Positions 7,486 to 64,000 of a stretch of DNA of 64,000 nucleotides are shown here, in pieces. A program made the position numbers and the translations under genes. The DNA comes from Coemansia sp. RSA 487 (taxonomy: Eukaryota > Kickxellomycota > Kickxellomycetes > Kickxellales > Kickxellaceae). How positions within the stretch are numbered: the stretch's first letter is position 1; each line of letters opens with the position of its first letter. Where the stretch lies: contig JANBRJ010000072.1 of NCBI GenBank assembly GCA_027577595.1, positions 26,068 to 90,067 of the forward strand, written 5' to 3'. The notes beneath the pieces were generated by a model, which worked only from the letters and a program-made list of their open reading frames with translations, was not told the DNA's origin and made no database searches.

Positions 7486-8663
7486 TTACAACTTCTTTAC
7501 AGCCTTGTCGAGATATGGAACGACAAGGGCGACTCTACGGATACGGTATTGATCGATCGTGTTGAGCTTGACCAACCGCAGGTACTGTTGATATACAATG
7601 GTGACGTAGCATCCAAGGGCAGTGCCGATGTGCCAGTAGGCATGGAGCTGGAACAGGGGGCTGAACAACGGGGGCAATGCGTCTCTAATGGCACGCAGGT
7701 TGCCACAAAAGATATTATCAATATTCCAGAGAATAAAGGCTGCGCCAAACGAGCCAAAGCCAACCCAGAAGAGCTGTGTGAGCTCACCGTATGCGCGCGG
7801 GTTTGTTTTGCGTATCTCTATTTGGTGACGGGTGTTGAGAAATACGATGTAAAACACTTCGATTCCGTAGGCAACTTGGTGGAAGACCGGTTTGCGGATC
7901 TGCACGTACACCAGAGTGACCACTGTCGAATAGGCGACCAGGGCAAGTGACACCAGAATATCTGATCCGACCTTGACATCCGCCCGCAGAGCGCAGTATA
8001 TACAGACACAGGTGCCATAGACCACTATAGTAAATCTCGGAAGGGAGTGGGGGTTTTTTAGAAAGAAGCGAAGCCACACAAGAATTTAAAAAAGCATAAG
8101 ATGGCTCTGTTTAGTAAAATACACAAACAAGACGAAGCCACAGCTACGATTCTATTTTAAAAATGGTCAGCAAAAAAAAACTTTATTTGCAATACTTACT
8201 CGGTAGTTCGTCGGCAAGCTGCCACTGGTATTGAAGCGTCATGTGGAATAGCCATCTACAGATTAAACCGAGGTCATATGCGTAACATTAAGTAAATGTC
8301 CCGAGTTTCATTTTTTTTGGTTGTTGAGAACGAATCCGCTGACGTAGAGAGAAGAGGAGGGAGAGAGAAAAAGTAAAAGGTGGCATTCGTTTGCAAAAAT
8401 AGTACTTACGATCCAAGACCGACGATAAGCATGGCCATGTAGCATATGAGAAAGCGGTTCTCCTGGCCAGTTGTCCGCACCTTGTACATGCCAAGCAGCG
8501 CAAGGGTAAAGAAAACTAGGTTTGTCGACGTGTTCCAAAACTCGGCAATGTACTTGCACACCACATAGTTTTCCTCGCACCAGTCGATGGTTGACGTTGC
8601 ATCTCCCCAGTAATGGATGATCTCGGGTATTGCCCCAGCAATGGGGTGGTCATCTAGTTTCAT
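7486..8663 (-). CDS. YPC1: Alkaline ceramidase, paralogue A
   Basis: Three exons, 8410-8663, 8200-8255 and 7486-8024, giving 282 aa. Both introns have GTAAGT donors and TAG acceptors; phases 2 and 1 join as S-W-L-F-H and D-E-L-P-M-V-Y. This is a seven-helix ER/Golgi membrane hydrolase that cleaves phyto- or dihydroceramide into sphingoid base and fatty acid. By analogy with human ACER3, the Ca site residues are D27, W28, E30, N32 and E41, and the catalytic Zn-site residues are S85, H89, D100, H231 and H235 (HAYWH); all are present, so the enzyme looks active. It is divergently oriented to paralogue B 2.1 kb away. The C-terminus ends in basic residues (AVKKL) that might act as an ER-retrieval signal (inference). 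Confidence 0.9.
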
Positions 8664-10796: not shown

Positions 10797-12266
10797 ATGG
10801 GAATGATATTGAAAGATAACGTCCGCGACCCAAGTTCCTACTTTTGGGGCAAAAGGTAAGAAGAAATGGCTCCCCTCTATCCAGACCACAAACACATTTT
10901 TCAACCTTTGGCAGAAAATCAATGGCGGGAAGAATGACCTGTGCAGTATATGGGGGGTATGGAATGACAGGAGGTATTTCTTTTGGGTCCAATGATCCAA
11001 GCTCATGCTGTCCAAAATCAGGCTCATTCCTCCGTTGTTTACTGCCTGGTCTACTGCTTGTGAACCCTGTGTGTCGATCGCTGTCGCAATTCCCTTGACT
11101 GCAGATGCTAATTCTGTCGTTTTGTTTTGCCACGTTGAGACCATCAGTTACTAACATTGTTTTCTGTAAACTTTTGTTTGGGGGAGGGGTGCTTTATTTT
11201 TGTCCTAGGACATCCACGCTTGATTGGTGCGAGGTAAGTCGAATGTGATATTTCCTGTTTTTGGTGCCTGAGCAAATTATTATGTGTGACAATAGCTAGA
11301 TCAAATTTTCAAACGACTTTGGTGACCTTTGTATTTGCATGTGTTTCTGATACATGCTATATTTCAATGTATGTATTTCTGCATTGTTCTTAGTCTTGTG
11401 ATCATCTAAAACGTGTAAAGCTCTATTATGTTCGGTCGCTAATGCTATTTATGCGTTCATTTTGTTATTTTGTTTACGCAAAAAAGCGTTTGCTATTATA
11501 GGAAAACTATGCGGTCAGCAACTACATCGCCGAGTTTTGGAACACGCTAACCAATGTCACAATGACGACAATTGCTCTTCTGGGAGTCTACAACTCAATA
11601 AAGCACAGTCAAGGCAAGCGCGTGACTGCTATCTACCTGGCTATGCTCTTGGTGGGTATCGGGTCTGTTTGCTTCCATGCAACGCTCAAATACTCTACAC
11701 AGCTTCTGGACGAGCTGCCCATGCTGTATGTGTGCACGCTGGGCTTCTACTCACTTGTGGAGATTGAAAGGACCATCAGCCACGGATGGAAACTGCCTGT
11801 AGCGCTCGCTGTTTTCCAGACATTCATTACGCTGACGTACATGTTCTGGCTGCAGAATCCAGTGTTCCATCAAGTGGTTTTTGCAGTCACTGCATTCGGC
11901 GCAGGACTCTTTGCCTACAAGCGACTCAACGACCCACGTGTCAGCAACGACGCTCGGCGGCTTCTTGTTCGGTTATTTATGCTTGGGCACATATGCATGC
12001 TCAGTGGGTTCTTTGCATGGAATCTGGACAACATCTTTTGCGATAAGCTGCGCAGCTATCGATCGTATGTGGGAATGCCACTGGATGTAGTGTTTCAGCT
12101 CCACGGTTGGTGGCATATTCTGACAGGGTATGGCTGCGGCTATATGCTTCTACTTGTCCACTATGTAAAGCTTGCGTATATTGGCCATAGCCATCTGTTC
12201 ACTGTAACATACTTTCTAGGTATATTTCCTCATATCACGCTACGCGAACCAAAGAAGATCGACTAA
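10797..12266 (+). CDS. YPC1: Alkaline ceramidase, paralogue B
   Basis: Three exons: 10797-10855, a 25-nt micro-exon 11209-11233, and 11502-12266, giving 282 aa. Intron 1 is phase 2 (AAAAG then GTAAG; acceptor CCTAG) and intron 2 phase 0 (TGCGAG then GTAAGT; acceptor TATAG). The micro-exon encodes TSTLDWCE, the conserved Ca-site segment, so it cannot be skipped without loss of function. Predicted active-site residues: D25, W26, E28, N30, E39, S83, H87, D98, H229 and H233 (HGWWH). The function is the same as paralogue A. Intron positions differ from those of paralogue A, so the pair is not a very recent duplicate. The start was chosen because the exon opens with ATG and runs into YFWGKR before the first donor. 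Confidence 0.88.
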
Positions 12267-35093: not shown

Positions 35094-36824
35094 TCAGCTC
35101 AGTTTGGGAAACAGAGCCGACACGCTGCTGCCAGAAACCTGGTTCGGCACCACTGTTTGCCATCCAGCACCGAACTGCGCATGCTTCCAGCTACGTTCAG
35201 TCTTGCTGACTGACAAATGGTTCAGGAGCAGCTCAGTCTTCATAGGCATCACGGGCTGCAACATGATGGCCGCAATGCGTACTGTCTCCAGCGTGTAGAA
35301 CAGAACAGTTTGCAACCGAACTCTCGATTCTGGATATGTCTGTTTGACTATTTTCCACGGCTCGTTGTCCGACATGTACTTGTTCGCCAGTGCGAGGGCA
35401 TCGAAAACAATACCCAGACCACGGCCAAACTCTCCTTTATCGAATTTTTCCTTTGCCCTGTCTGGGAGCTTGATAAGAATAGCATATATGGCTACGTCTC
35501 TCTCATCGACCTGATCCTGATACCGATCCTGTTGTTGCTCCGCAATAGCATGGAACCCCTCTAGGTCTGCGCAGAGCCTTTTTGACAGACACCGGGATGC
35601 CAGGTTAGCTAGCTGGCCGACAAGGTCTTTTCTGTAGCGCACAAGCACCTCATCAGAAGAATAGTCTCCATCATCCGAAATTCCGCCATTGCGAATGATG
35701 AAGTACCGGATCGGATCAAGACCATACGTCGCGATAGCCTCGAACGGGTCCACAACATTCCCTTTACTCTTCGACATCTTCTGCGCGCCCATCGTCCAAT
35801 GCGCATGCGCAAGGATCCGTTTGGGCAGCGGAAGGTCTGCCGCCATCAGGAGAGCTGGCCAATACACAGCATGGAACCTCACAATGTCCTTGCCCACGAC
35901 CTGGACATTGGGTGGGAAGAAGTTCGGTCGGCCATCGGTGCCTGTGCCGTCGGCGGACCACGGGTAGCCGTTGACAGTGGCGTAGTTTACCAGCGCGTCG
36001 ACCCACACATAGATCGTGTGGTCCGGGTCGTTTGGCACCGGGATGCCCCACTTGAGGCGACTACGCGGGCGTGATACAGACAAGTCATCGAATCCCGAGT
36101 TCAGCCACCCAAGAACCTCGTTACGGCGTATCTCCGGATATATAACGTCTGGATTTGTCTCGATCCACTTTATCAACTTGTCTTTGAACGCAGAGAGCCG
36201 GAATTTGTAGTTCACCTCAGATACCCACTCGACGGGTTGCCCGGACTCGATTGCAAACTTCCCGCGTTTACCAGTAACAGGGTCCACGCGCTCCTCAATC
36301 TGGCTCTCTGTGTAAAACGCTTCGTCAGACACCGCATACCAGCCCTCATGCTTGCCCTTGTAAATGTACCCGCGCTTGACCAGCAGCTTCCAGAAATGCG
36401 ACACTGCTTTGTGGTGCTGCGGATCGGACGTGCGTATAAAGTCCGTGATACTGGCGTTGGACGCCGCCATCAGATCGCGAAACTTGTCCGAGTACCGCGT
36501 GCAAAAGGATAGCGTGTCCTCGCCTGCCTTTTCGGCCGCTTGCTGGATCTTGAGCCCATGCTCGTCTGTGCCTGCTGATAGTTTAGTGTTCTTCCCTAGC
36601 AAATCGGCGTACCGCTTGATCGTGTCTGCAAGAACTATTGTGTAAAAGTGCCCAATGTGCGGAACTGAGTTTACGTAGAAGATAGGTTGAGTCACAAAGT
36701 AGTTGTTTGCATCCTCTTCTCGCCTTTGTATCGAGGAAGCGAATAGACGCCGAGCTTCAACGGCTCTTGTGATGGCGGCCAGATGTGACGCTCTGTGGAG
36801 CCGGCGATACAGACAAGAGTACAT
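35094..36824 (-). CDS. MSM1: Mitochondrial methionyl-tRNA synthetase
   Basis: 576 aa class I aminoacyl-tRNA synthetase. An N-terminal Arg-rich, acid-poor stretch (about 1-38, YRRLHRASHLAAITRAVEAR) looks like a mitochondrial presequence. The HIGH motif is PHIGH at 55-59 and KMSKS is at about 349-353. A helical anticodon-binding domain follows. No C-terminal tRNA-binding extension or zinc-knuckle insertion was seen, as expected for the mitochondrial/bacterial short form. It charges mitochondrial tRNA-Met. It lies on the minus strand downstream of NAA10's start, with 207 bp between. Confidence 0.94.
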   Translation of the reverse strand: MYSCLYRRLHRASHLAAITRAVEARRLFASSIQRREEDANNYFVTQPIFYVNSVPHIGHFYTIVLADTIKRYADLLGKNTKLSAGTDEHGLKIQQAAEKAGEDTLSFCTRYSDKFRDLMAASNASITDFIRTSDPQHHKAVSHFWKLLVKRGYIYKGKHEGWYAVSDEAFYTESQIEERVDPVTGKRGKFAIESGQPVEWVSEVNYKFRLSAFKDKLIKWIETNPDVIYPEIRRNEVLGWLNSGFDDLSVSRPRSRLKWGIPVPNDPDHTIYVWVDALVNYATVNGYPWSADGTGTDGRPNFFPPNVQVVGKDIVRFHAVYWPALLMAADLPLPKRILAHAHWTMGAQKMSKSKGNVVDPFEAIATYGLDPIRYFIIRNGGISDDGDYSSDEVLVRYRKDLVGQLANLASRCLSKRLCADLEGFHAIAEQQQDRYQDQVDERDVAIYAILIKLPDRAKEKFDKGEFGRGLGIVFDALALANKYMSDNEPWKIVKQTYPESRVRLQTVLFYTLETVRIAAIMLQPVMPMKTELLLNHLSVSKTERSWKHAQFGAGWQTVVPNQVSGSSVSALFPKLS

Positions 36825-51091: not shown

Positions 51092-51522
51092 AAATATATT
51101 TTTAGCTGATTGCTCCTGGTTAAGTAAAGGGGGGAGGTTTGGTTGGAATGAAAGAAAACGGAAAGAGAATATACACTTTATAGCGGAAAATAGAAACAGT
51201 TTGAAAAAGAAAAACGAAAAGGGGGTTTTTGGATAAAGGAGTTCATTTTGTGAAAGGGGCTTGCTTTTTTTTTCTGAAGCTTTAGTGTGTGGAGAAATAT
51301 TTACATTTTTGAACACTGCCAAGAAGTGGTGTTGCATTCTTGTGCTTACGTTTTCTCTCTCTTTTTTGCTCTTTTTGCCCGCCTGATATTATTATTTTCA
51401 TATACTTTTTTTTGCTTTGGGTTTGTTCAAAGGTTGACAAATTAAGGGGTGCCGTTTCTTTCCCGAACCTTGCAGAACCTTGTAGAACCTTGTCTGTTTC
51501 TTTTCCTTCCAATTTCTAGAAT
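51092..51522. promoter_or_regulatory. Divergent promoter region, FES1 and VPS9
   Basis: 431 bp with T/C-rich stretches near 51270 and 51340-51420. A tandem CCTTG(C/T)AGAA motif occurs three times at about 51466-51492. No gene seen. Confidence 0.45.
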
Positions 51523-53044
51523 ATGACAAAGCCAGACGCTGTTGTAGATACCTCCGCCACTGCTGCCGCTGACAGTGAGCCTGCAGAAAAGGCTGATATG
51601 CAGACGACCGCTGCTGAAAACGACTCTGCACTGAAGCAGTCGCCTGGGCCGTCCGAGGGCGTCGCAAAGGAAGATACCGAAAGCACATCCCCAGAGCTCG
51701 CACAGAACAACGATAGCATCGCCGCTACCGATACGGACAACTCCGATAATAACGGCGACAGCAAGTCTCCTGCTGCTGATGCTAATGCTCCCGGTATCAC
51801 AGTGTCTGGAAACATCTCCAGCGAATCTCCAGGCCCAAGTGCACATGTAGTTGCGGCCGACGCGGTGGCAGCGAGTACCGCGGGAGGCGAAAATACACTT
51901 GCGCCGCTGCCGCCATCGTCGCCGCCCCTGATGCCAGGCAAAATGGTGCGGCGCACATCGACCTCGTCGTCATCGTCCAAAGTGCACGACGCCATCCAGG
52001 ACATCATCAGCCAATTCGATCCCCTAAAGGTCAGCGCATCGGCGTCTCAGCTCCCGGCAGACTCCTCGGCACCCTCATCTTCTACGCAGCAGACCGCAGC
52101 AACTGACCTAACAGATTCGATGGACGAAGCTGAGCAGCAAAGGCGGAAACAAATGGACCTCAGATCCAAATTCGAGCCAGAAACCGATGGCTTCAACTAC
52201 AACGACTTTCTCCAGCAACTGCGCCAACCTGCAGCAAAAGTAGTCGCACGCACAGTCAAAAACTTCTTGACCGAGTTCAGTCGGCGGCCGATGACGCTTA
52301 CTGAGCAAGTCCGTTTCGTCCACGACTTTCTTGAATTTGTGGCAGCCAAAATGCGCGAATGCACTATCTGGCAGTCGATGAGTGACAGGGACTTTGATAA
52401 TGCGCGTGAAGGAATGGAGAAACTGGTGATGAACCGGCTGTATCCTCTTTGTTTTTCGCCATCAACGTCCGATGACGCCGATAAAGACCACGTAATTAGC
52501 GAAAAGCTGAGCCTGTTCCGGTGGATCCGCTCTGAGCACTTGGATATCGAACGCACGGAGCAAACAGACTCGTTTTTGCAGTTTGCACGTACCGAGCTTT
52601 TGAAAATCAACAGCTTCAAGTCGCCGCGCGATAAAGTCATCTGCATCCTCAACTGCTGTACGGTGATATACGCGCTATTGCGCAACATGAAGGACCAGCA
52701 GCAAGTTGACGGCGATGTGGGCGCAGACCGGTTCCTCCCGATCCTCATTTACGTTGTAATAGTGGCTAACCCGCCGAAGCTCGTCTCCAATTTGCAGTAC
52801 ATTATGCGGTTCAGATCCTCTGATCGTATGCAGTCGGAGGCCGGCTACTATGTAACCAATTTACAGGGCGCTGTGGCCTTTATCGAATCCATGGATGCAT
52901 CGTGTTTGTCGATCGTGCAGGATGACTTTGACCGCAATATCGAAATGACTATATGGGAGATGGAGATGGAAAAGAGAAGCAAGGAGCGCAGTAAGCAGAC
53001 GCACCAGCGATCAATATCGCAGAACAGATCGGCCGAACCTACTA

Positions 53045-53078
<34 letters not shown>

Positions 53079-54195
53079 CCAGAATGTGCCGTTGCCGCCT
53101 CCTCGTCCGCCTAGACAACAGCCACAACAGAATCTTGGCCAGCAACAGCAATATATGCCGCAGTACCAGGGACAGAATCCAGGCGTGGATGCTAGCGGTG
53201 AAAGGGCGCAATGGTTAATAGACCGTAGCAGCGATTTTGCAAAGACCACACTGGAAAAGACAAACAACTTTGTGGGTCGCCTCATCTCCGAGTTTTCAAC
53301 CCCCACATCAGCCGACAGCGACGGTAGTACCGGTAGCAACCCCCACCACTACCAGCAGCACCAACGTGGACCTTCAAACGCACCCGAACTACATCGACCG
53401 GGCTCTTCCGATAATGAACAACAGCATACTAGTGCGCTAGCAGACGAGGTACATGTCGGCGATGCCGAATTGGTTGGGCATAAAGACTGGAAGGCAAACA
53501 TGATGCTTGTGCGCGACATGTTCCCCAACATTGACGCTGACGTTGTGGAGATCGTATTCGAGTCCAACAGCGGCGTGGTTCCGAGGACAATTGAGCAGCT
53601 GCTGGACATGTCCGCCACAAACGAGGCCCTGGAGGTGGCGAAAACGCAGCAGCAGGCCGAAGAGAATACCAGCAACTTCATACCTGGTAAGGGCTTGAAT
53701 GGCACAAGCTTGCTGCAGAACAGTGCTGGTATCGGTGAAACTGCTGCTGCTGCTAGAGCATTTGAAGACAGTGGCGCCGGTGCTCTTGGCGGTGAGGACG
53801 ATGTGGATGAGATGGAGAAGTGGAAAGGGCAGTGGGCCGACGACGACAGCGATGATGATGATAGGGATGAAGGAGGGCGTGCTGCTGACAAGGCCATTCC
53901 GTCAAAGAGCATGGTCAATTCATCTGAGCCCAGTAGCTCCCAGAAACAGCCGATGCATGAAATCGGCAGTGGTGCAACAAAGGAAGAGCCAGAAAGCAAT
54001 CCCAGTATCGAAATTAAAAACGAAAACAACAGCAACACTGCAAAGGATAATGCTGTTGGAACCAACTCGCAAGCCCAGAACAATACGCCAGAACCTGTTC
54101 CAGACACATCGGGTGACGAGGAGCTGGCTCGCAAGCTGCAGCTGGAGTTTGAGGAGCAGGCTCGCCAAAACACTCAACAGCCTCGCCCAGAATAA
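51523..54195 (+). CDS. VPS9: Vps9-type Rab5 guanine nucleotide exchange factor with CUE domain
   Basis: 890 aa. A disordered Ser/Asp/Ala N-terminus (1-200) is followed by a helical bundle (about 210-300) and a VPS9 domain (about 300-440; VISEKLSLFRWI, SPRDKVICILNCCTVI, DRFLPILIYVVIVANP, YIMRF, EAGYYVTNLQGAVAFIE). After that come a CAG-coded polyglutamine run (about 508), a Pro/Gln linker, a CUE domain (about 650-700; MLVRDMFPNIDADVVEIVFE), and an acidic tail. This is the order of yeast Vps9: the VPS9 domain activates Rab5/Vps21 on endosomes and CUE binds ubiquitin. The protein is about twice yeast length because of the disordered parts. No intron. Confidence 0.92.
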
Positions 54196-54323
54196 CCAAA
54201 CTCTTTTTTGTTTTGAAAACATTCATCACTTTTGTATTACAACAGCAGTTAACTTGTCAAAACACAAAAGTACACCAGCCCAATTCGCAATCAGACAAAG
54301 TGATGATGTTGTGCTGTCCAAAA

Positions 54324-55326
54324 CTAATTGCGCCTAATAAGAAGGGATGCATACATGTTAAATGGCGAAATTTTTGTGGTGGAAATAATGCATCTTGTTC
54401 CAAGAAAAGCCGTTTGCGCAGGCGTAAGATATGCGTCAGTGCAAAACAGAAAAACATGCAAGAGAAAGCACAAATGATTAGTATTATTGTCAAAAGCAGC
54501 CACAGATGTCTATCTCTTCAGCTCTCATTTGAGCACCCACCTGCAAAAGAGACAGCATCAGCATCCTATCCTACAACCAGGATGATTCCTAGAACTAGGA
54601 TTTGCCGTGGCTATAACCTTGACTGAATTTCGTGGTGGTTGTTATTTGTCTGCCCTCACCGTCTTCCTTTTCTGCTTGGGCTACTGCTCATTGGTGGTAG
54701 CAACGGCTGCAGGCTGCCTGCGGCAGAAGCGCTCTGGAGTCCCACCGTGGTCACAAAGACCATGAAAAATATGCCTGAAGTTGAGAACAGCTGTGAGATC
54801 TTGGCTGTATATGCGCGAACGAGGAGTCAAAACACCATCCACTTCCATGGTCCCATACACACTTCGTTGGTGCACCCAGGGAGACCGTGGCAGGGTACTT
54901 CTTTCATCCTCCCTCGTTGGTAGGCAATATTTTCCAACCAAATGCCTGTGTAGTGCTGGCACTGATATGGTCAGGCCGCTGGATACTTCATATACGTTTC
55001 TTGGTGTGTGCCAGCACTGCATCTGGGTTCTTGTTCAAGGTAGTGATGGTATTTCTTCAGATTGCTAGGCATTTTAGGATCAATGTTAACTAACCACATT
55101 GAAAGCACAGACAGAGAGAGACTGAGAAGCCAGTCCACTGCAGTGTGAACCAATAGGCGTGTAGCGAGCAGCTTTCTCCACAAAGCTCAGTTTGCGCCTC
55201 TTACTTCCAAGCGCAAATATAGCACCAGCCGATGCAAACGACTTTTCTTGGAATTCAATGCGTTATCGCCACCGCAAACCTTTCACCACTCGACGCGTAT
55301 ACACCCTTCTTATTCGGTGCAATTAG
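54324..55326. mobile_element. TIR-flanked element, copy 1 (decayed)
   Basis: The ends are inverted repeats: left CTAATTGCGCCTAATAAGAA at 54324 against the complement of 55307-55326, with similarity continuing inward for roughly 100 bp. The interior is collinear with 62276-63541 (for example around GCGGCAGAAGCGCTCTGGAG in both). A minus-strand coding remnant at about 54690-54910 is described separately. It is about 1.0 kb and lacks roughly 230 bp present in copy 2. It sits 129 bp after the VPS9 stop. No clear target-site duplication was found by eye. Confidence 0.72.
54690..54930 (-). pseudogene. TnpB/Fanzor-like C-terminal remnant, copy 1
   Basis: The minus strand reads YSQDLTAVLNFRHIFHGL then DHGGTPERFCR, resembling the last RuvC motif of TnpB/Fanzor nucleases (Arg-Asp-x-x-Ala-x-x-Asn-hydrophobic), here with Gln-Asp. 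In a neighbouring frame just upstream, CTNEVC resembles the second half of the zinc knuckle that precedes that motif. Frames are broken, so no full protein is possible. The family assignment is by motif only. Confidence 0.45.
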
Positions 55327-55549
55327 CATACCACATGTGAATGGTGCTGCATCTTTGTTTGCAAAATCCGCAATAAACCAAGCATCTGCTTGTTATGCAA
55401 TGATTTTTTCTGTTGATTCAGCCTTGGATATCAATTTGTAATTCTGATTTTGTTTTCAATAATTCCTCTTACATTATAAAAGTCAACAGAAAAACGGTTC
55501 CCAAGACAAGGATTCCATTGAAGTAACCAGTCAGCTCGATTAAGGCAGT
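55327..55549. other. Short gap before the second F-box-like gene
   Basis: 223 bp AT-rich flank between the inverted-repeat element and the 3' end of the F-box-like gene. Nothing else seen. Confidence 0.5.
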
Positions 55550-57247
55550 TTACTTACGATAGAAAAGCCGCAGTATCTTTTCTGCATGTTTATCATACAG
55601 TCCACATGAAAGAGCATGTCTAAGCTCGTCGTGGTATTTTGACAGGCTCCTTTCTAGTACAGCTGTAAACGAAAACCTGGGACATAGGACGGCAAGTGTT
55701 ATCGACACAGTGGCCAGCTTGCCTTGAAGCATATAATCTGAACACCAAACACCCCAGGCTTTGAGATTGCGACTAAGCGGATAGTGAGTGGGATATAGGT
55801 AATCCGGTAACGTTTTGGTTTGTCCTTTATCTGATTCCAAACCGATTCCTCCAAAGTGACACCTGAAATCCTTCATATTTGGCAAGAGTCTGATGACATT
55901 GAACATTTCTAGCAGGTTCAGCTTGGTTTTTCGAAGACTAAGGATATGGATGTTTTCTGCGTAGGGACTTGTAGAAATAATACTGACAAACGCATTTTTA
56001 GGAACTTCACTGGGAATTGATATCCAATATGTTTCCGATGAGAGAATACCCAGTGGGAATTTTAGAAAGGATTCTTCGCTCAATTCCCTGCGGGAAACGT
56101 GGTTACGAGCCACTCTTACGTAGCGGAGATGTGGGTATTTGCCATCCGAAAACACTTGGGACTGTTGCAGTATCTCCAAAGATTCGTAGTCAATGTCGAT
56201 AAATAGATATTTCAACGTATCTCCGTTTCCTCTGAATATCGTGTCATCTGCAAATATGTATCTTGAATCCAATATAATATATCTTAGTGCTGGGAACGGA
56301 ATCACAGACTTGTCGGTCCTTATTCTTTTATACTCTTCAGATTCAAATGCTTCAATATCCAGCCTTTTGAGCCTAGGGAATATTACCGGCCGACCATCCT
56401 CGTGAATAAAAAAGGGCCATGCAAGGTGACACTGGAGTTTATCGATAATCATCTTTTTCAAGGTGGAAGCACAGCTCTTGACAATGTAATGATAGGAGCA
56501 TGTGTCATCCGAGCAGTCGCACCGCAAAGTAGTGAGTTGTGGTGTGTCTTGTAGAGCTGATATGTTAGTACTTATACAATCTGTTATCGTCTGGCGCCCC
56601 CACAAACCCCTTGTTATAAGACACTCTGACAAAAGTGTATCCATGCTTGATTTCTTCGAAATAAACGATTGAGCGCTTATTTCCATAATAAAGGGGTCGT
56701 TTCCAAAGCAAACCTTTACACGCCGTAGATTGGGCATTGTCACCTTTATACGATCTACAACCCGGGAGAATACGCTACTGAAGGTGGTTCTGTATCCGGC
56801 ATTGTATGGTATTGCGAGCTGAAAATCAATATCAACAAAAGTTGCCGAAGAAAGTACAAAATCTTCAGGCCAAATACGATCAAATTCCTGCACCTGTTCT
56901 ACGCTTAGAAAGTTCACTGAGTCTCTAAGGTGTATATTGACTTTTCTAACATAGTGGAGAGTCTTGTCGCCTGGATAATAGCTGCTTTTTGTAAAGTTAA
57001 CCTCTCCGAACATGCGCACAAACCGAACTCCCACTAAGGTCAAATCTAGTGATCCACATGAGTAATCAAGAGCAAGTGACCTCCACTGGTGACTAACATC
57101 ATATAGCACTTCCCAAGCCGCCGTCTCTTTCTCATCTTTTCCTTGCTCGCTGTATGAAAAGCAATAACGATTATTGTAGATATAGAACCGAGAAATATTC
57201 CCAGAAATATGCAGAGACAGCGTTTGAAATGGCGCCAGAGCAGGCAT
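55550..57247 (-). CDS. F-box-like protein of an expanded family, copy 2
   Basis: 565 aa from the ATG at 57247; the frame is open to a TTG at 57367 but that part is leader-like. The N-terminus MPALAPFQTLSLHISGNISRF then VSHQWRSLALDYSCGSLDL follows the pattern PFQTLPxxI...W(R)xxAL of degenerate F-box proteins in Kickxellales. The C-terminal two thirds are LRR-like without regular repeats. DDTIFRGNGDTLKYLFIDI and LAVLCPRFSF correspond to DDVIFRGNSSCLKALEIKL and LAILCPNFRG in the gene at 30391-32124. Role in substrate recruitment to SCF ligase is inferred. No frame break, so probably functional. Confidence 0.6.
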   Translation of the reverse strand: MPALAPFQTLSLHISGNISRFYIYNNRYCFSYSEQGKDEKETAAWEVLYDVSHQWRSLALDYSCGSLDLTLVGVRFVRMFGEVNFTKSSYYPGDKTLHYVRKVNIHLRDSVNFLSVEQVQEFDRIWPEDFVLSSATFVDIDFQLAIPYNAGYRTTFSSVFSRVVDRIKVTMPNLRRVKVCFGNDPFIMEISAQSFISKKSSMDTLLSECLITRGLWGRQTITDCISTNISALQDTPQLTTLRCDCSDDTCSYHYIVKSCASTLKKMIIDKLQCHLAWPFFIHEDGRPVIFPRLKRLDIEAFESEEYKRIRTDKSVIPFPALRYIILDSRYIFADDTIFRGNGDTLKYLFIDIDYESLEILQQSQVFSDGKYPHLRYVRVARNHVSRRELSEESFLKFPLGILSSETYWISIPSEVPKNAFVSIISTSPYAENIHILSLRKTKLNLLEMFNVIRLLPNMKDFRCHFGGIGLESDKGQTKTLPDYLYPTHYPLSRNLKAWGVWCSDYMLQGKLATVSITLAVLCPRFSFTAVLERSLSKYHDELRHALSCGLYDKHAEKILRLFYRK

Positions 57248-57590
57248 TGTGAAATATGATGGGCAAATAAATTTAGAGAAAAATGTGAAAAGTACAGAAT
57301 AAAAATATAACAGCTCGTCAGCACATACCAGCAGTGGCTTTTCATGTAAACAGAAAGCACAAGACAAGGGGATCGACTATCGATTAGTTTTATACCAAAC
57401 TGATCAAACGTATCTGGCTATTTTTAAATGTTGCAAATATAATCTTGATTGTTTTCGTTTCTTCCTTTTTCCACTTTCACTTTATCTTTATCTTTATCTT
57501 TATCTTTATCTTTATCTTTATCTTTATCTTTTTTATTTCTTTAAAGCATTGCATTTCACTTGAAGTAGCATGTTCGTCTACTCATGTGTC
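57248..57590. other. Gap with hexanucleotide microsatellite
   Basis: Upstream of the F-box-like gene and of the DHFR relic. It contains the TTTATC repeat described separately. No gene seen. Confidence 0.5.
57480..57530. repeat. Hexanucleotide microsatellite (CTTTAT)8
   Basis: Eight perfect CTTTAT units followed by CTT. It lies about 60 bp upstream of the DHFR relic. Confidence 0.95.
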
Positions 57591-58482: not shown

Positions 58483-59169
58483 GCACACTTTCGCTATTCA
58501 ATGTTCTAATCATCTTTATTTGTCGCTTTTCTATTTATTTTCAATTTCAATTGTATATCTTGCAAATATACCCTTCAGCATACTTTGCTGCCACAAAAAA
58601 GAGCTTGAATTAATGACCTAGCACCCTAACTACGATGTATCATGATCAGGTACATTGACAATAACCCCCAGCAATATCTTCACTGTCAAGCAACATTGGA
58701 ACAACAGTCACCTACAAATTACACATATTTGATTCAAGCGGTGAATGATTGTTTGTTATGCTCTATATCCACCACGTATATTTTGACCTTAGCTACCCAG
58801 TACATGGGACACGGCCACATGTATTACAGCTCACATTTCCACAACTATTTTTAACGTTTATATCATATTACAGAGCACAAAATTAAAAAGGCTAATTAGT
58901 TTATGATTTGTTGTTATTTAATTTATAAGCTATTGTACAGATCAGCTTTTTTCATTGTGCAGATCAGTCCACCTCTTCAATATGCTAAACAATCAACAGC
59001 CATAAATGTAAACAAAGCCAACCAATCACCATCCGCTATACATAGGGAAGTAAAAGTGAAGGTGCTCGGCAATAGACATTTCCTGCTTTTCTTTATTTAT
59101 TTTCTATTTAATCTTTTAAAAGTAGCTATTTGTATTTAAAGTTGTGCCTTTCAGTTATTTATATTTATT
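58483..59169. other. AT-rich intergenic region
   Basis: 0.69 kb. Short chance frames only; no domain and no RNA gene recognised. Confidence 0.5.
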
Positions 59170-59658
59170 ATGCCGCGCAGGAATAAAGGAAAATCGCCGT
59201 CACCGGCAAATAGTTCTCCAGACTCAAGCAACCCTTCTGAATTAACCAGCCTTTCTGAATTTAGCAACTTTTCGGAATCAAGAAACTCTTCGGAATCAAG
59301 AAACTCTTCCGATAGATGGTTGGTTCAATTTCTTACCGCCCAACACGCTGCCACAATAGCAATGTTGGAAAGGCAGAACAAGTTTTTCGATAATCTCACT
59401 TTGGCCCAGAAAGAGATAGCTCAGCAGCAAGCAGATGCAGCTCAGCAACGGAAAGAGATAGCTCAGCAGCAAGCAGAGGCAGCTCAGCAGCGAGCAGAGG
59501 CAGCTCAGCAGCAAGCAGCTAAACAAAACGCACTTCTCCAAGGTCTGGTTGACTCGCACAATAGAATACTATCGTCCATTGGCGGCAACTCAGTGCAGCA
59601 AGGATTGCACGATGGTGTCATTTCTAGCTATCCGGTAAGCAGAATAATGAATAAATAG
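59170..59658 (+). CDS. Hypothetical coiled-coil, Gln/Ala-repeat protein
   Basis: 162 aa; not recognised. The N-terminus is basic then Ser-rich, with a tandem FSESRNSSESRNSS duplication (18-bp unit). A segment WLVQFLTAQHAATIAMLERQ then NKFFDNL is followed by a predicted coiled coil made of degenerate 7-residue units of the type AEAAQQQ (about 85-120), and a short tail. The composition recalls gag-like or accessory proteins of the expanded families in this region, but no motif supports that. It precedes the intact FunK1 gene by 127 bp on the same strand. It may be expressed or may be a relic. Confidence 0.4.
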   Translation: MPRRNKGKSPSPANSSPDSSNPSELTSLSEFSNFSESRNSSESRNSSDRWLVQFLTAQHAATIAMLERQNKFFDNLTLAQKEIAQQQADAAQQRKEIAQQQAEAAQQRAEAAQQQAAKQNALLQGLVDSHNRILSSIGGNSVQQGLHDGVISSYPVSRIMNK

Positions 59659-59785: not shown

Positions 59786-62015
59786 ATGCTTGAGACGCCT
59801 GTAAAAAGTAATGCATCCAGGACTACCAATGCACCTCTTTCTGGTAAGTTTTAAGTTATACGAATAATAAGACTTAAAATCCACTTACATGAAAAATATT
59901 AGCACATTTTCTAACGCGGATTTTAAAATATTGGTTCATTTCTATCATCTCAAAACTATATTTCTAGCTACACTTTCGACACCGTTGAAGTTTCCTCCAG
60001 TGACGCAGAAATACAATCCAGCCACGTATATTGCAATTGCGGAAGATAATGCAAGCAATTGTGCTAGGGTGCCTTTCGACACGATTATTGACGAGCTGGG
60101 CGAGAATTGGTCTCAGGCATGGAACTCCTCAAGTGATAATGGGCTCGACGATAGCCATATCAACGAGGTTGTTGCAAATTACTTGGTCGAAGAGCCAAGC
60201 ATTGACCGTTCATCTGGTGATGGTTCGGAGAAGACGTACCAGTCTATGCTGAACGTGCTGATGAAGTCCGTTGAGGCTCACTTGGTATCCAGTTTTAACG
60301 AGCATCTTGATATCAGATGGGTTGACACACACAGCAACCCAATGCCAAACGGACGCAAGCCGGATGGCGCTCTCGTGGTCAGCGGATCGGGGGTTCAACC
60401 GGAATGGTCCTATACAGTAACTACCTTTGAGATCAAAGGATCCAAGGACTCTGCAGGATCCAAGGTGCTTCGAGGCCAGCTTCTTGCAAATCTCAGAGAC
60501 ATGTCCAGAAATCAGCCCCGCCGGTACTCACTCGGATTGACGATCTCGAAAGGAGGCGAGGTGCAGGTTTACCTTTGCACCCTCAGAAAAGTGTTCTATG
60601 CGCCGCTGGGTTGTCTCCCTGTCGCTAACGCCCCAGAGGCAGATGTACGCAGGGTGATCAAGTTCCTTCTCTTGCTTTACAAGCAATTTCCAGGGGAAAA
60701 TTACGGATTCCTTGTTCTCCGGAAGAATGGAATCTTTGATTCGTTTTACACAAACGAAATCCACGGCTACATGCAGGGAAGTGCAGACGAGCTGCTTAAA
60801 ACAGCGAGAATAAGAATCATGGACGATCAAGCATTTAGCGGACGGCGCCGTGCTATTGTTGGTTCGCGTTCTTGGCTTTATAATGTCAAGGTTAGCGACG
60901 ATAGCAAAAGGCAAAGTCAAGAATGCATACTGAAGCTGCATTGGTACTATGGCAATCTTACAGAAGTTCGCGTACATAAGAGGGCTTTAGAAATTGGTGT
61001 GCCACGCATCCCGCAGCTCCTTGGTTCTGCTTCTGTCACCTGTTCCGATAGTAGTATGTATAATGGGGAGATAATTCTTATGGAGGATTCAGGGAAGGAT
61101 TTCAGCCAGTTTTTTAAGGAACTCAGCCCTGGACATGTTTGCAAGGCTGTCGACATGTTTGCTGGCTATCTTCACACTCTTTTGGTTGCGGTTACAGGCG
61201 ATTCGAAAGGCTATTTGTTGCACAGGGACATTTCAGCGCGCAACTTGCTTGTAAAGGATTCCAAACCTTATGTCATCGACTGGGGCAGTGGATTGATTGT
61301 AACGCATGTCGAACCGAGAAAGGTATCACAATCGACCGTAGTCGGGACAGCGCCTTATATGGGCGTTCGCGTTTTGACCAGTGTTGGCAACCGCTCGCTC
61401 TTGGAGGACTTGGAGTCGTTGTTCCTTGTTCTTTCTCACTGCTTGTGGGAGAGGTATGGAAATCGTGCTGGGCGGGACGAGACAAGCCAGTTTGAAGACA
61501 TGTGGAATGGGTCGTTGAGTCCGGAATATCTGTTAGAGGCACGCAGTAGTTGGTTGGCGAGTAGCGAAACCTATTGGGAGAAAATGGAGATAATGCAATG
61601 TCCGGAGATCCTCAAGAGCCTTGCAATCGGTATGTTTATGCTGTTGTTTTCAGATATTAATGAGCCTATCAAAAGGTTTGCTAAAAGGCCAATCGACTCA
61701 CGCCTCTTCAAGTTCAAGGCCGGGAAGTGGGTAGATGTATTCAACAAAGCGGCCGAGCCTACCGAAAAATTCTACTATGATGATTTTACTCATCTGAACA
61801 TACTGCGTGAATACGTGCACAACAATCCAGACTGTGCTCTGGACTGTGGGAACAAAGCAGGATCGTGCGTACAGCAGACATCGTCGATAGCACATGAACC
61901 AGACAATACCAAGAGCGCGGATAGTAGCACTGCCAGCATGCAAGGATTGAAGAGGAGCTCGCATGATAGCGATAATTCACCTCCAGAATCCAAGTCACGC
62001 AGAACAAGCCTATGA
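59786..62015 (+). CDS. FunK1-type fungal protein kinase
   Basis: Two exons, 59786-59843 and 59968-62015, giving 701 aa. The donor is TCTG/GTAAGT and the acceptor TTTCTAG, phase 1. Without the intron the frame would open at an ATG inside it (59889). The N-terminal half (about 20-330) is the FunK1 extension with FEIKGSKDSAGSK (PD-(D/E)XK-like KG.D pattern). The kinase half has ILKLHWYYGNLTEVRVHKRA, catalytic loop LHRDISARNLLV, metal motif VIDWGSG, and GTAPYMGVRVL. FunK1 kinases are a fungal-specific, often expanded family of unknown role. The C-terminal tail is Ser/Asn-rich and basic. No frame break is seen, so it is probably active. Confidence 0.85.
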
Positions 62016-62275
62016 TAGTTTTGTGATAGCTGGCAACCATACAGGCTGTGATGATTATTAGCTCTTTTTAAGCTAACCATATGTTTTTATAGATGTTTGG
62101 ACTGGCTATGGAATGCCATGTTTATTTACAATATAGAAACAGAACTTTAGTCTCGTCAAAATCTACTTTTGTTATTACACAAGTGTCTCTTAACAATGTA
62201 TATGTTTGCTACGATAGGATAATGATAGCCATGCTGTAGCATATTTCTATTTTGCAACTACTGTATTTTGCATAG
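62016..62275. other. Gap between FunK1 and the second inverted-repeat element
   Basis: 260 bp AT-rich. No gene seen. Confidence 0.5.
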
Positions 62276-63541
62276 CTGATTGCGTCGAATAAGAAGAATA
62301 TATACGCGTAGAATGGTCAAAGGTTTGCAGTGGCGATAGCGCATTTTGCATTCCAAGAAAAAGCCGTTTGCGCAAACGTAAGATATGCGTCAGTGCAAAA
62401 CAGAAAAACACACGAGAAAACACAAATGATTAGTGCCATTGCCAAAGTATCATCGCCAAAAAGCAGTCACAGGTGTTTATCTCCTCGGCTCGCATTTGAG
62501 TACCTACCTGCAAAACCGGCAGTATCATATCCTAGAACTAGGATTCCTAGAACTAGTATTTGCTGCGGCTATAATCTTGGCTGGATTTCGTGGTGGTTGT
62601 TATTTGTTCGTCCTTGCCGTCTTTTTTGCGGCTGTCGTATTCCTTTTCTTCTTGGGTTGCTGTTCATCGGTAGTAGTGACGGCAGCAGGCCGACTGCGGC
62701 AGAAGCGCTCTGGAGTCCCACCGTGGCCGTGAAGGCCATGGAAAATATACCTGAAGTTGAGAACGGCTGCGAGATCTCGGTTGTACATGTGTAAACGAGG
62801 AGCCAGAACACCACCCACTTCCACGGGCTCCATACGCAGCTCGTTGGTGCACTCAAGGAGACCGGGGCAGAGCACTTCTTTCATCATCTCTCGTTGGTAG
62901 ATAGCACTTTCCAACCAAATGCCGGTGTAGTGCTGACACTGATATGGTCAGGCTGTTGAATGCTTCACATGGGCCCTTCTTGATGTGTGCTAGCACTACA
63001 GCTGGGCTCTCATTCAAGGTAAGTGGTATTTCTTCAGATTGTTGGTGTCACGCTAGTGATTACTATTAAACCAGCTCACGCAATAACCGAGAGAGCTAAT
63101 GATATCAAACCCTGGTATACATGCAAGGCTTCCCTTTCCTATAAATAAAGGATTAGCGACGAAGGGAATGGAGTTCTGGAGTTTTTCCATTTTTTTAAGA
63201 GTTTGAGAAAAGGAGAAAACAGTTATAAACGACCTTTCCGTCCATCTACACTCGAAGGCCCCAAGAGAATCGTGACAATCAGGGTTTATTAGGAACAATA
63301 CTAACTAATCGCATTGAAAGCACAAACAGAGACTGAGAAGCCAATCCATTTTAGTATAAAATAATAGGCATGTAGCGAACAGCCTTCTCCACAAAACTCA
63401 GTTTGCGCCTCTTGCTTCCAAGTGCAAATATAAGGCCAACCGACGTAAACGCCTTTTGCTTGGAACGCAAAAATGCATTATTGTTACCACAAACCTTTCA
63501 CCATTCGACGCGTATAGATCCTTCTTATTCGACACAGCTAG
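62276..63541. mobile_element. TIR-flanked element, copy 2 (decayed, longer)
   Basis: Left end CTGATTGCGTCGAATAAGAA at 62276 pairs with the complement of the 63520-63541 end (CTAGCTGTGTCGAATAAGAA), and the inverted similarity extends inward for roughly 120 bp (both arms contain TATACGCGT, AATGGT and AAAGGTTTG). The interior is collinear with 54324-55326 but has about 230 bp more (around 63055-63290). It is about 1.27 kb. A minus-strand coding remnant is listed separately. Confidence 0.72.
62600..62940 (-). pseudogene. TnpB/Fanzor-like C-terminal remnant, copy 2
   Basis: The minus-strand open frame runs from about 62940: CQHYTGIWLES, LLECTNELRMEP, then YNRDLAAVLNFRYIFHGL and GHGGTPERFCR, then a Lys-rich tail. 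NRDLAAVLNF fits the final RuvC motif (Asn-Arg-Asp ... Ala ... Asn). CTN with a following Cys (Arg here, Cys in copy 1) resembles the zinc-knuckle end. Further upstream on the same strand, at about 63100, a segment FIGKGSLACIPGFDIISSL may be another piece of the same gene. The full protein is not recoverable. Assignment is motif-based. Confidence 0.5.
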
Positions 63542-64000
63542 TTTTGCAAAATATTGTATTTGTATGCCTCCTCACGTTTTCTCCAAGCAATTCGCTCTGA
63601 CAGATCTGGGAACCGTTTCTTTGTCAATCAGGAAATGGTCGTTGCTGGTTTTGATGGGTGGAGAGCTATTTTACCTAACCCAAGAGCGCTACATGGACTC
63701 GCAGCCTGGGAGACCCACTGTTCTGATGCTGAAGGCAGCCAGGGGATCCTGTACGAAATGGCAATTCCATGTTCAATCGCTGGAAAGCATCATTCGCCTC
63801 TACATCTTTCACCATGGACCGCCGTCTTGATCATTTGCGATTCACATAACCATCAAACGGTGCTAGTACCCAAGACGCCAGGCATCCTTCTATCACGAAC
63901 CAACCACCCGTCCATAACAGACGCTGTCACGCTAGTGTGTTGTCATATGCAGGGCTGATTTCCATACAGATGGGTTGGGGCAACCACTGGTTGTGGACAT
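63542..64000 (+). other. Right-hand flank with unrecognised open frame
   Basis: An open frame at 63554-63958 (134 aa, ending CCHMQG) and an overlapping one in another frame end within the window. Neither shows a domain I recognise. The first could be the end of a decayed gene cut by the inverted-repeat element, or chance. Confidence 0.25.

Follow-up and report, generated by a model that had tools for sequence, protein, structure and literature searches.

In a 64,000-nt stretch of a Coemansia sp. RSA 487 contig (hereafter the window), we found two related elements, A and B, which very probably represent a family of non-autonomous DNA transposons, derived from a Fanzor1-carrying transposon through an internal deletion, whose copies have since decayed. 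The direct support for this reading is the Fanzor1 homology, the same architecture in two copies, the inverted-repeat ends, the frame break in copy B and the absence of codon-position bias. A non-autonomous transposon is recognised by its terminal inverted repeats and by dispersed copies that share their ends; both features are seen here, and the family is known from two copies in one window. The features are listed in Table 1.

Table 1. Positions of the two elements and of the Fanzor1-related features within the window
Feature	Position	Strand	Basis or remark
Element A, inverted-repeat transposon with Fanzor1 remnant	62275-63541	-	Terminal inverted repeat alignment and alignment with copy B; ends approximate, repeat similarity continues to 62255 and 63562
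Terminal inverted repeat, Fanzor 3' side of A	62255-62372		79% complementary to 63444-63562
Terminal inverted repeat, Fanzor 5' side of A	63444-63562		79% over 119 bases
Open frame of copy A, 115 codons stop-to-stop	62600-62947	-	Residues 18-84 align with Fanzor1 C-terminus
PERFCR	62696-62713	-	Within frame 62600-62947
NRDLAAVLNF, RuvC-III-type motif	62753-62782	-	Aligned to NRDQAAVLNF of PpFz1
CTNELR, damaged second cysteine pair of zinc knuckle	62834-62851	-	PpFz1 CKNMSC, SpuFz1 CTNPNC
CQHY, possible damaged first cysteine pair	62927-62938	-	Inference, no template aligned; in both copies
Element B, second transposon copy, orientation of A	54323-55327 (ends approximate)	-	About 217 nt of A absent
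Copy B frame, YSQDLTAVLNF...PERFCR, RuvC-III part	54684-55034	-	Fanzor1 profile 21.0 bits, E=1.4e-5
Copy B frame, CHGLPGCTNEVC, zinc-knuckle part	54830-54970	-	Fanzor1 profile 15.0 bits, E=0.001

Fanzor1 homology of the remnant in copy A

The sequence-only reading had pointed to NRDLAAVLNF, CTNEL(C/R) and PERFCR as signs of a Fanzor remnant with a RuvC-III segment and a zinc knuckle. All three motifs were found as claimed in one minus-strand frame (62600-62947), and the homology was confirmed as being of the Fanzor1 type. When this frame was compared with 177,635 distinct PDB sequences by phmmer, five matches were obtained at E values up to 10. The top match was 9cf0, the Fanzor1 of Parasitella parasitica (PpFz1), with E values of 9.4e-4 for the whole sequence and 0.0037 for the best stretch; frame residues 18-84 and chain residues 1192-1254 were collinear over 67 residues. 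The second match was 8gkh, the Fanzor1 of Spizellomyces punctatus (SpuFz1), with an E value of 0.81 that alone is not significant, and the third to fifth matches were 40S ribosomal protein S19a (E 0.83-1.5). In the three-sequence alignment, the identities of the remnant to the PpFz1 and SpuFz1 fragments were 41% and 34%, respectively, and the columns common to all three were GLL.C.N, NRD, a single N, I, P, F and R. NRDLAAVLNF aligned with both proteins, which bears out its assignment to RuvC-III. A six-frame regular-expression search of the whole window for the RD motif gave two matches. One is the NRDLAAVLNF frame; the other, RDLMAASN near 36479 (-), stands in a frame that looks like a methionyl-tRNA synthetase. 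As for the zinc knuckle, the part with the second cysteine pair is present, but the C4 set is incomplete: this pair is kept in copy B (CTNEVC) and only one of its cysteines is left in copy A (CTNELR).

A profile of the PpFz1 and SpuFz1 C-termini was used to search the 1,216 window ORFs of at least 30 codons, and it scored the copy A frame at 39.6 bits (E=2.1e-11), a score that is somewhat favoured because both query fragments are the spans aligned by the remnant in the PDB search; the rank of the remnant across the whole PDB is independent of the choice of fragments. The inclusion threshold was passed by 3 of the 1,216 ORFs, which were the copy A remnant and two pieces of copy B. The best score of the same profile in 100 order-2 Markov windows was 13.4 bits. 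Used singly, the PpFz1 and SpuFz1 fragments scored the frame at 26.7 and 18.1 bits, respectively, and their best scores in 40 order-2 Markov windows were 11.0 and 13.4 bits, respectively. Pfam and NCBIfam stayed silent: no transposase or TnpB-type match was obtained in the remnant and its neighbouring frames, with a positive control for Pfam alone. In that control, both genuine Fanzor1 C-terminal fragments also missed the TnpB zinc-ribbon model, and one of them showed a weak match to PyrI_C (metal-binding, E=0.061). Because true Fanzor1 fragments miss the TnpB zinc-ribbon model too, the silence of Pfam is uninformative and was not counted against Fanzor.

It could be argued that the Fanzor1 similarity is due to chance, as the PDB E value is only 9.4e-4 (0.0037 for the best stretch), Pfam is silent, and the second Fanzor match (0.81) is on a par with that to a ribosomal protein (0.83). 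We find this explanation hardly credible, since 67 residues align collinearly, the profile and the single fragments score the frame far above the 40 and 100 randomised windows, and the Fanzor1 profile also picks up both copy B pieces. Judged by its sequence, the frame is the decayed 3' end of a Fanzor1 gene, with the RuvC-III RD segment and part of a damaged zinc knuckle.

Structure and decay of the two copies

The remnant had also been placed inside an inverted-repeat element, and this was supported by the two arms given in Table 1. The lengths of elements A and B are 1,267 and 1,005 nt, respectively, the inverted ends of both copies are about 100 nt, and the copies lie about 8 kb apart. For copy A, a TSD candidate of 10 bp with 1 mismatch (62269/63551) and one of 9 bp with 1 mismatch (62275/63541) had scores that were reached by 7 and 19 of 200 random scans, respectively; for copy B, the only candidates were 4 bp exact or 7 bp with 1 mismatch. 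No transposase was found in the element frames scanned. A search of the window with a two-copy profile gave no third copy and returned only A, B and their end repeats. The segment that separates the remnant from the 3' inverted repeat holds, at 62530-62560, two near-palindromic 15-mers in tandem, TCCTAGAACTAGGAT, and a similar stretch is seen in copy B. An exact 13-nt direct repeat, TGTCACGCTAGTG, occurs at 63046-63058 inside element A and at 63925-63937 outside it.

In copy B, the zinc-knuckle and RuvC-III parts lie in different frames, which indicates a frame break, and the R of the RD motif is lost (SQDLTAVLNF). A single-sequence PDB search with the copy B frame 54684-55034 gave no Fanzor match, and single Fanzor1 fragments used as queries scored copy B at 10.0-11.7 bits, inside the range of the random windows. 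The identity of A and B was 83.3% over 996 ungapped columns, gapped columns being left out. Over the 985 ungapped columns between the element ends, there were 131 transitions and 31 transversions (K2P 0.19), a strong transition bias. The observed/expected CpG ratios of copy B, copy A and the window were 0.62, 0.90 and 0.92, respectively; together, the transition bias and the CpG ratio of copy B may reflect methylation-linked decay. The identities of the 3' part (62275-62599), the remnant frame and the upstream part were 83.7%, 83.9% and 83.9%, respectively, and these near-equal values fit uniform decay. The segment of A that has no counterpart in B (63068-63285, approximate) is either an insertion in A or a deletion in B; the open frame across it had no Pfam match, and its PDB matches were to unrelated proteins (E=0.58 or worse).

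Between the copies, substitutions at the three codon positions of 62664-62947 numbered 13, 17 and 14, respectively, a flat distribution (p=0.74) that differs from a 60% share at third positions (p=1.5e-4), the share we assumed for a constrained gene. Because the codon positions are flat and the frame of B is broken, we consider that the copies diverged as non-coding DNA; there is no sign of coding selection between A and B. An alternative reading, a live Fanzor1 gene with introns of which the remnant would be the final exon, draws on the 115 open codons of copy A. This is extremely unlikely, as the element ends about 500 nt beyond the remnant at the upstream inverted repeat (63444-63562), stops occur in this interval in all three minus frames, copy B is frameshifted, and the codon positions are unbiased. 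In copy B, the remnant and the 5' inverted repeat are separated by only about 270 nt. Moreover, no further Fanzor match was found in the PDB for four frames of A (62853-63047, 63056-63304, 63304-63477 and 63354-63497) and three of B (54681-55034, 55089-55262 and 54974-55186), although decayed Fanzor pieces could escape a single-sequence search with such short frames; the PDB matches from these seven upstream or overlapping frames were to unrelated proteins (E=0.58 or worse).

The Fanzor1 motif has been defined as D-X(125,275)-[TS][TS]XX-[C4 zinc finger]-X(5,50)-RD (PMC3627910). Of this motif, the RD in its family context is present in copy A. The C4 zinc finger is incomplete, with CTNELR in A, CTNEVC in B and the putative first pair CQHY in both, and in neither copy were the upstream RuvC-I D, RuvC-II and the [TS][TS] found in one frame. 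In both copies, the intact frames are too short to hold RuvC-I, RuvC-II and the remaining protein. The Fanzor1 remnant makes no nuclease.

The surroundings of the elements were also surveyed. Directly beside element A, the ORF at 59871-62015 (+), with 714 codons, matched PF17667, a protein kinase domain of fungi (E=5.5e-12); N-terminal to this domain lay a DUF6826 match that did not reach its cut-off. Copy B has as neighbours the ORF at 51520-54192 (VPS9 and CUE domains) and the ORF at 55553-57376 (no Pfam match). Among ten other window ORFs, eight had ordinary eukaryotic Pfam matches and two had none; the Pfam matches among the window ORFs included an RNA polymerase III subunit, BOP1, protein O-mannosyltransferase and ubiquitin-S27a, and this gene content is in keeping with a fungal source. 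The window also holds a 47-nt inverted repeat (8529-8575 and 11500-11546, 89% complementary, 2.9 kb apart) and a tandem 42-nt repeat at 59409-59518 within the ORF at 59140-59655, which had no Pfam match.

Guide RNA in the element ends

At Fanzor loci, the omega RNA extends across the 3' inverted repeat and its guide comes from the flanking sequence (PMC10432273). An omega RNA would therefore be expected here on the minus strand at about 62255-62400. The sequence-only reading had suggested that, if full-length relatives exist in the genome, the element ends could encode a guide RNA, and a related explanation is that of a locus which has lost its protein and whose omega RNA, from the Fanzor 3' side and the inverted repeat, guides a Fanzor made elsewhere. 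There is a precedent for this in Spizellomyces, where 134 ghost Spu-1 loci have been reported and ghost omega RNAs work with SpuFz1 (PMC10432273). The most similar parts of A and B are also found on the 3' side: 62377-62419 holds the longest run of identical columns (36) as well as the best 40-column block (39/40), and the best 60-column block falls within 62352-62419. However, the same values were reached by 384, 1,051 and 250 of 2,000 column shuffles, respectively, and the identity over the last 126 nt (62275-62400) was 80.5%, not above that of the rest of the element. In folding, all four 3'-end stretches gave z values of +0.29 to +1.09 and were no better than shuffles. RNAalifold of the 3' end found changes on both sides in 3 of 26 pairs, which with two sequences is too weak a signal. 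No Rfam match was obtained across the whole window at gathering thresholds.

Thus, conservation and folding revealed no guide-RNA block beyond chance, in a comparison of two copies that has low power. There is no evidence for a retained guide RNA in the element ends, the two-copy test being weak, and the suggestion of guide-RNA-encoding ends was not borne out. We consider a locus that lost its protein and still guides a Fanzor very unlikely. A wider form of the same idea, in which many elements across the genome would transcribe omega RNAs that guide a full-length Fanzor1 in trans, with the best-conserved block, at 62352-62419, in the RNA scaffold, is very unlikely in our opinion.

Proposed origin and known relatives

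Very probably, a Fanzor1-carrying transposon was internally deleted and gave rise to a non-autonomous family. In the shared ancestor of A and B, both inverted-repeat ends would have survived, but of the Fanzor1 gene only the 3' end. A transposase from another locus presumably moved the family in trans, and copies A and B have since decayed; we infer both this succession of steps and the superfamily to which the host element belongs. For comparison, the SpuFz1 element has a length of about 2.1 kb and its protein one of 633 aa (PMC3627910), and the smaller sizes of A and B were counted in favour of internal deletion.

With the deletion reading, the remnant is an ordinary relic of a known eukaryotic enzyme that cuts DNA under RNA guidance, and there is no sign of a working or new system. 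It had been taken as a candidate for an undescribed Fanzor lineage; with 41% identity to the P. parasitica Fanzor1, the fragment gives no ground for this. The remnant alone points neither to an active nuclease nor to a novel lineage or guide RNA. What is documented here is a small deletion-derivative family of Fanzor1 transposons in two decayed copies, a further case of such transposons giving rise to non-autonomous derivatives. If intact parents are present in the genome, such copies would test whether ghost elements keep a guide RNA.

Related sequences were also sought in contig collections, which comprise viruses and prokaryotes and say little about fungi. In viral contigs, the remnant, the two-Fanzor alignment and the PpFz1 fragment gave 35, 25 and 8 pattern matches, respectively, and the three-fragment alignment gave 7 in genome contigs; none of these was confirmed. 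The end-repeat pattern had no match in viral or genome contigs. Our literature search gave no report that joins Fanzor with Kickxellomycotina or Coemansia.

Among known proteins, PpFz1 (PDB 9cf0-9cf3) shares with the remnant the collinear C-terminal strings VLC.GLL.C.N, NRD.AAVLNFR.I and P..F.R. In contrast to PpFz1, the alignable part here is limited to 67 residues, the searches gave no further Fanzor segment, and copy A has lost a knuckle cysteine. SpuFz1 (Spu-1 element, PDB 8gkh) shares GLL.CTN, NRD and P..F.RS.PA and is likewise carried by an inverted-repeat element. The inverted repeats of Spu-1 are 30- to 33-nt long and its copies include intact ORFs (PMC3627910, PMC10432273), whereas the repeats here are about 100-120 nt and neither A nor B has an intact ORF. 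The MuDR-type Fanzor1 elements of Rhizopus, Phycomyces and Mucor have MuDR-like TIRs and 9-bp TSDs and are without their own MuDR transposase (PMC3627910). A and B resemble them in having TIRs and in that no transposase was seen in the frames scanned; going by the same source, a MuDR-type element would be expected to combine long inverted repeats with 9-bp duplications, and a mariner-type element to have TA duplications. The nearest published counterparts in the sources consulted are the ghost Spu-1 elements of S. punctatus (Saito et al. 2023, PMC10432273), to which A and B are comparable. Both are Fanzor-related inverted-repeat elements without a Fanzor ORF; the elements described here differ in that the comparison of two copies reveals no conserved region for an omega RNA and in that a C-terminal piece of the gene persists.
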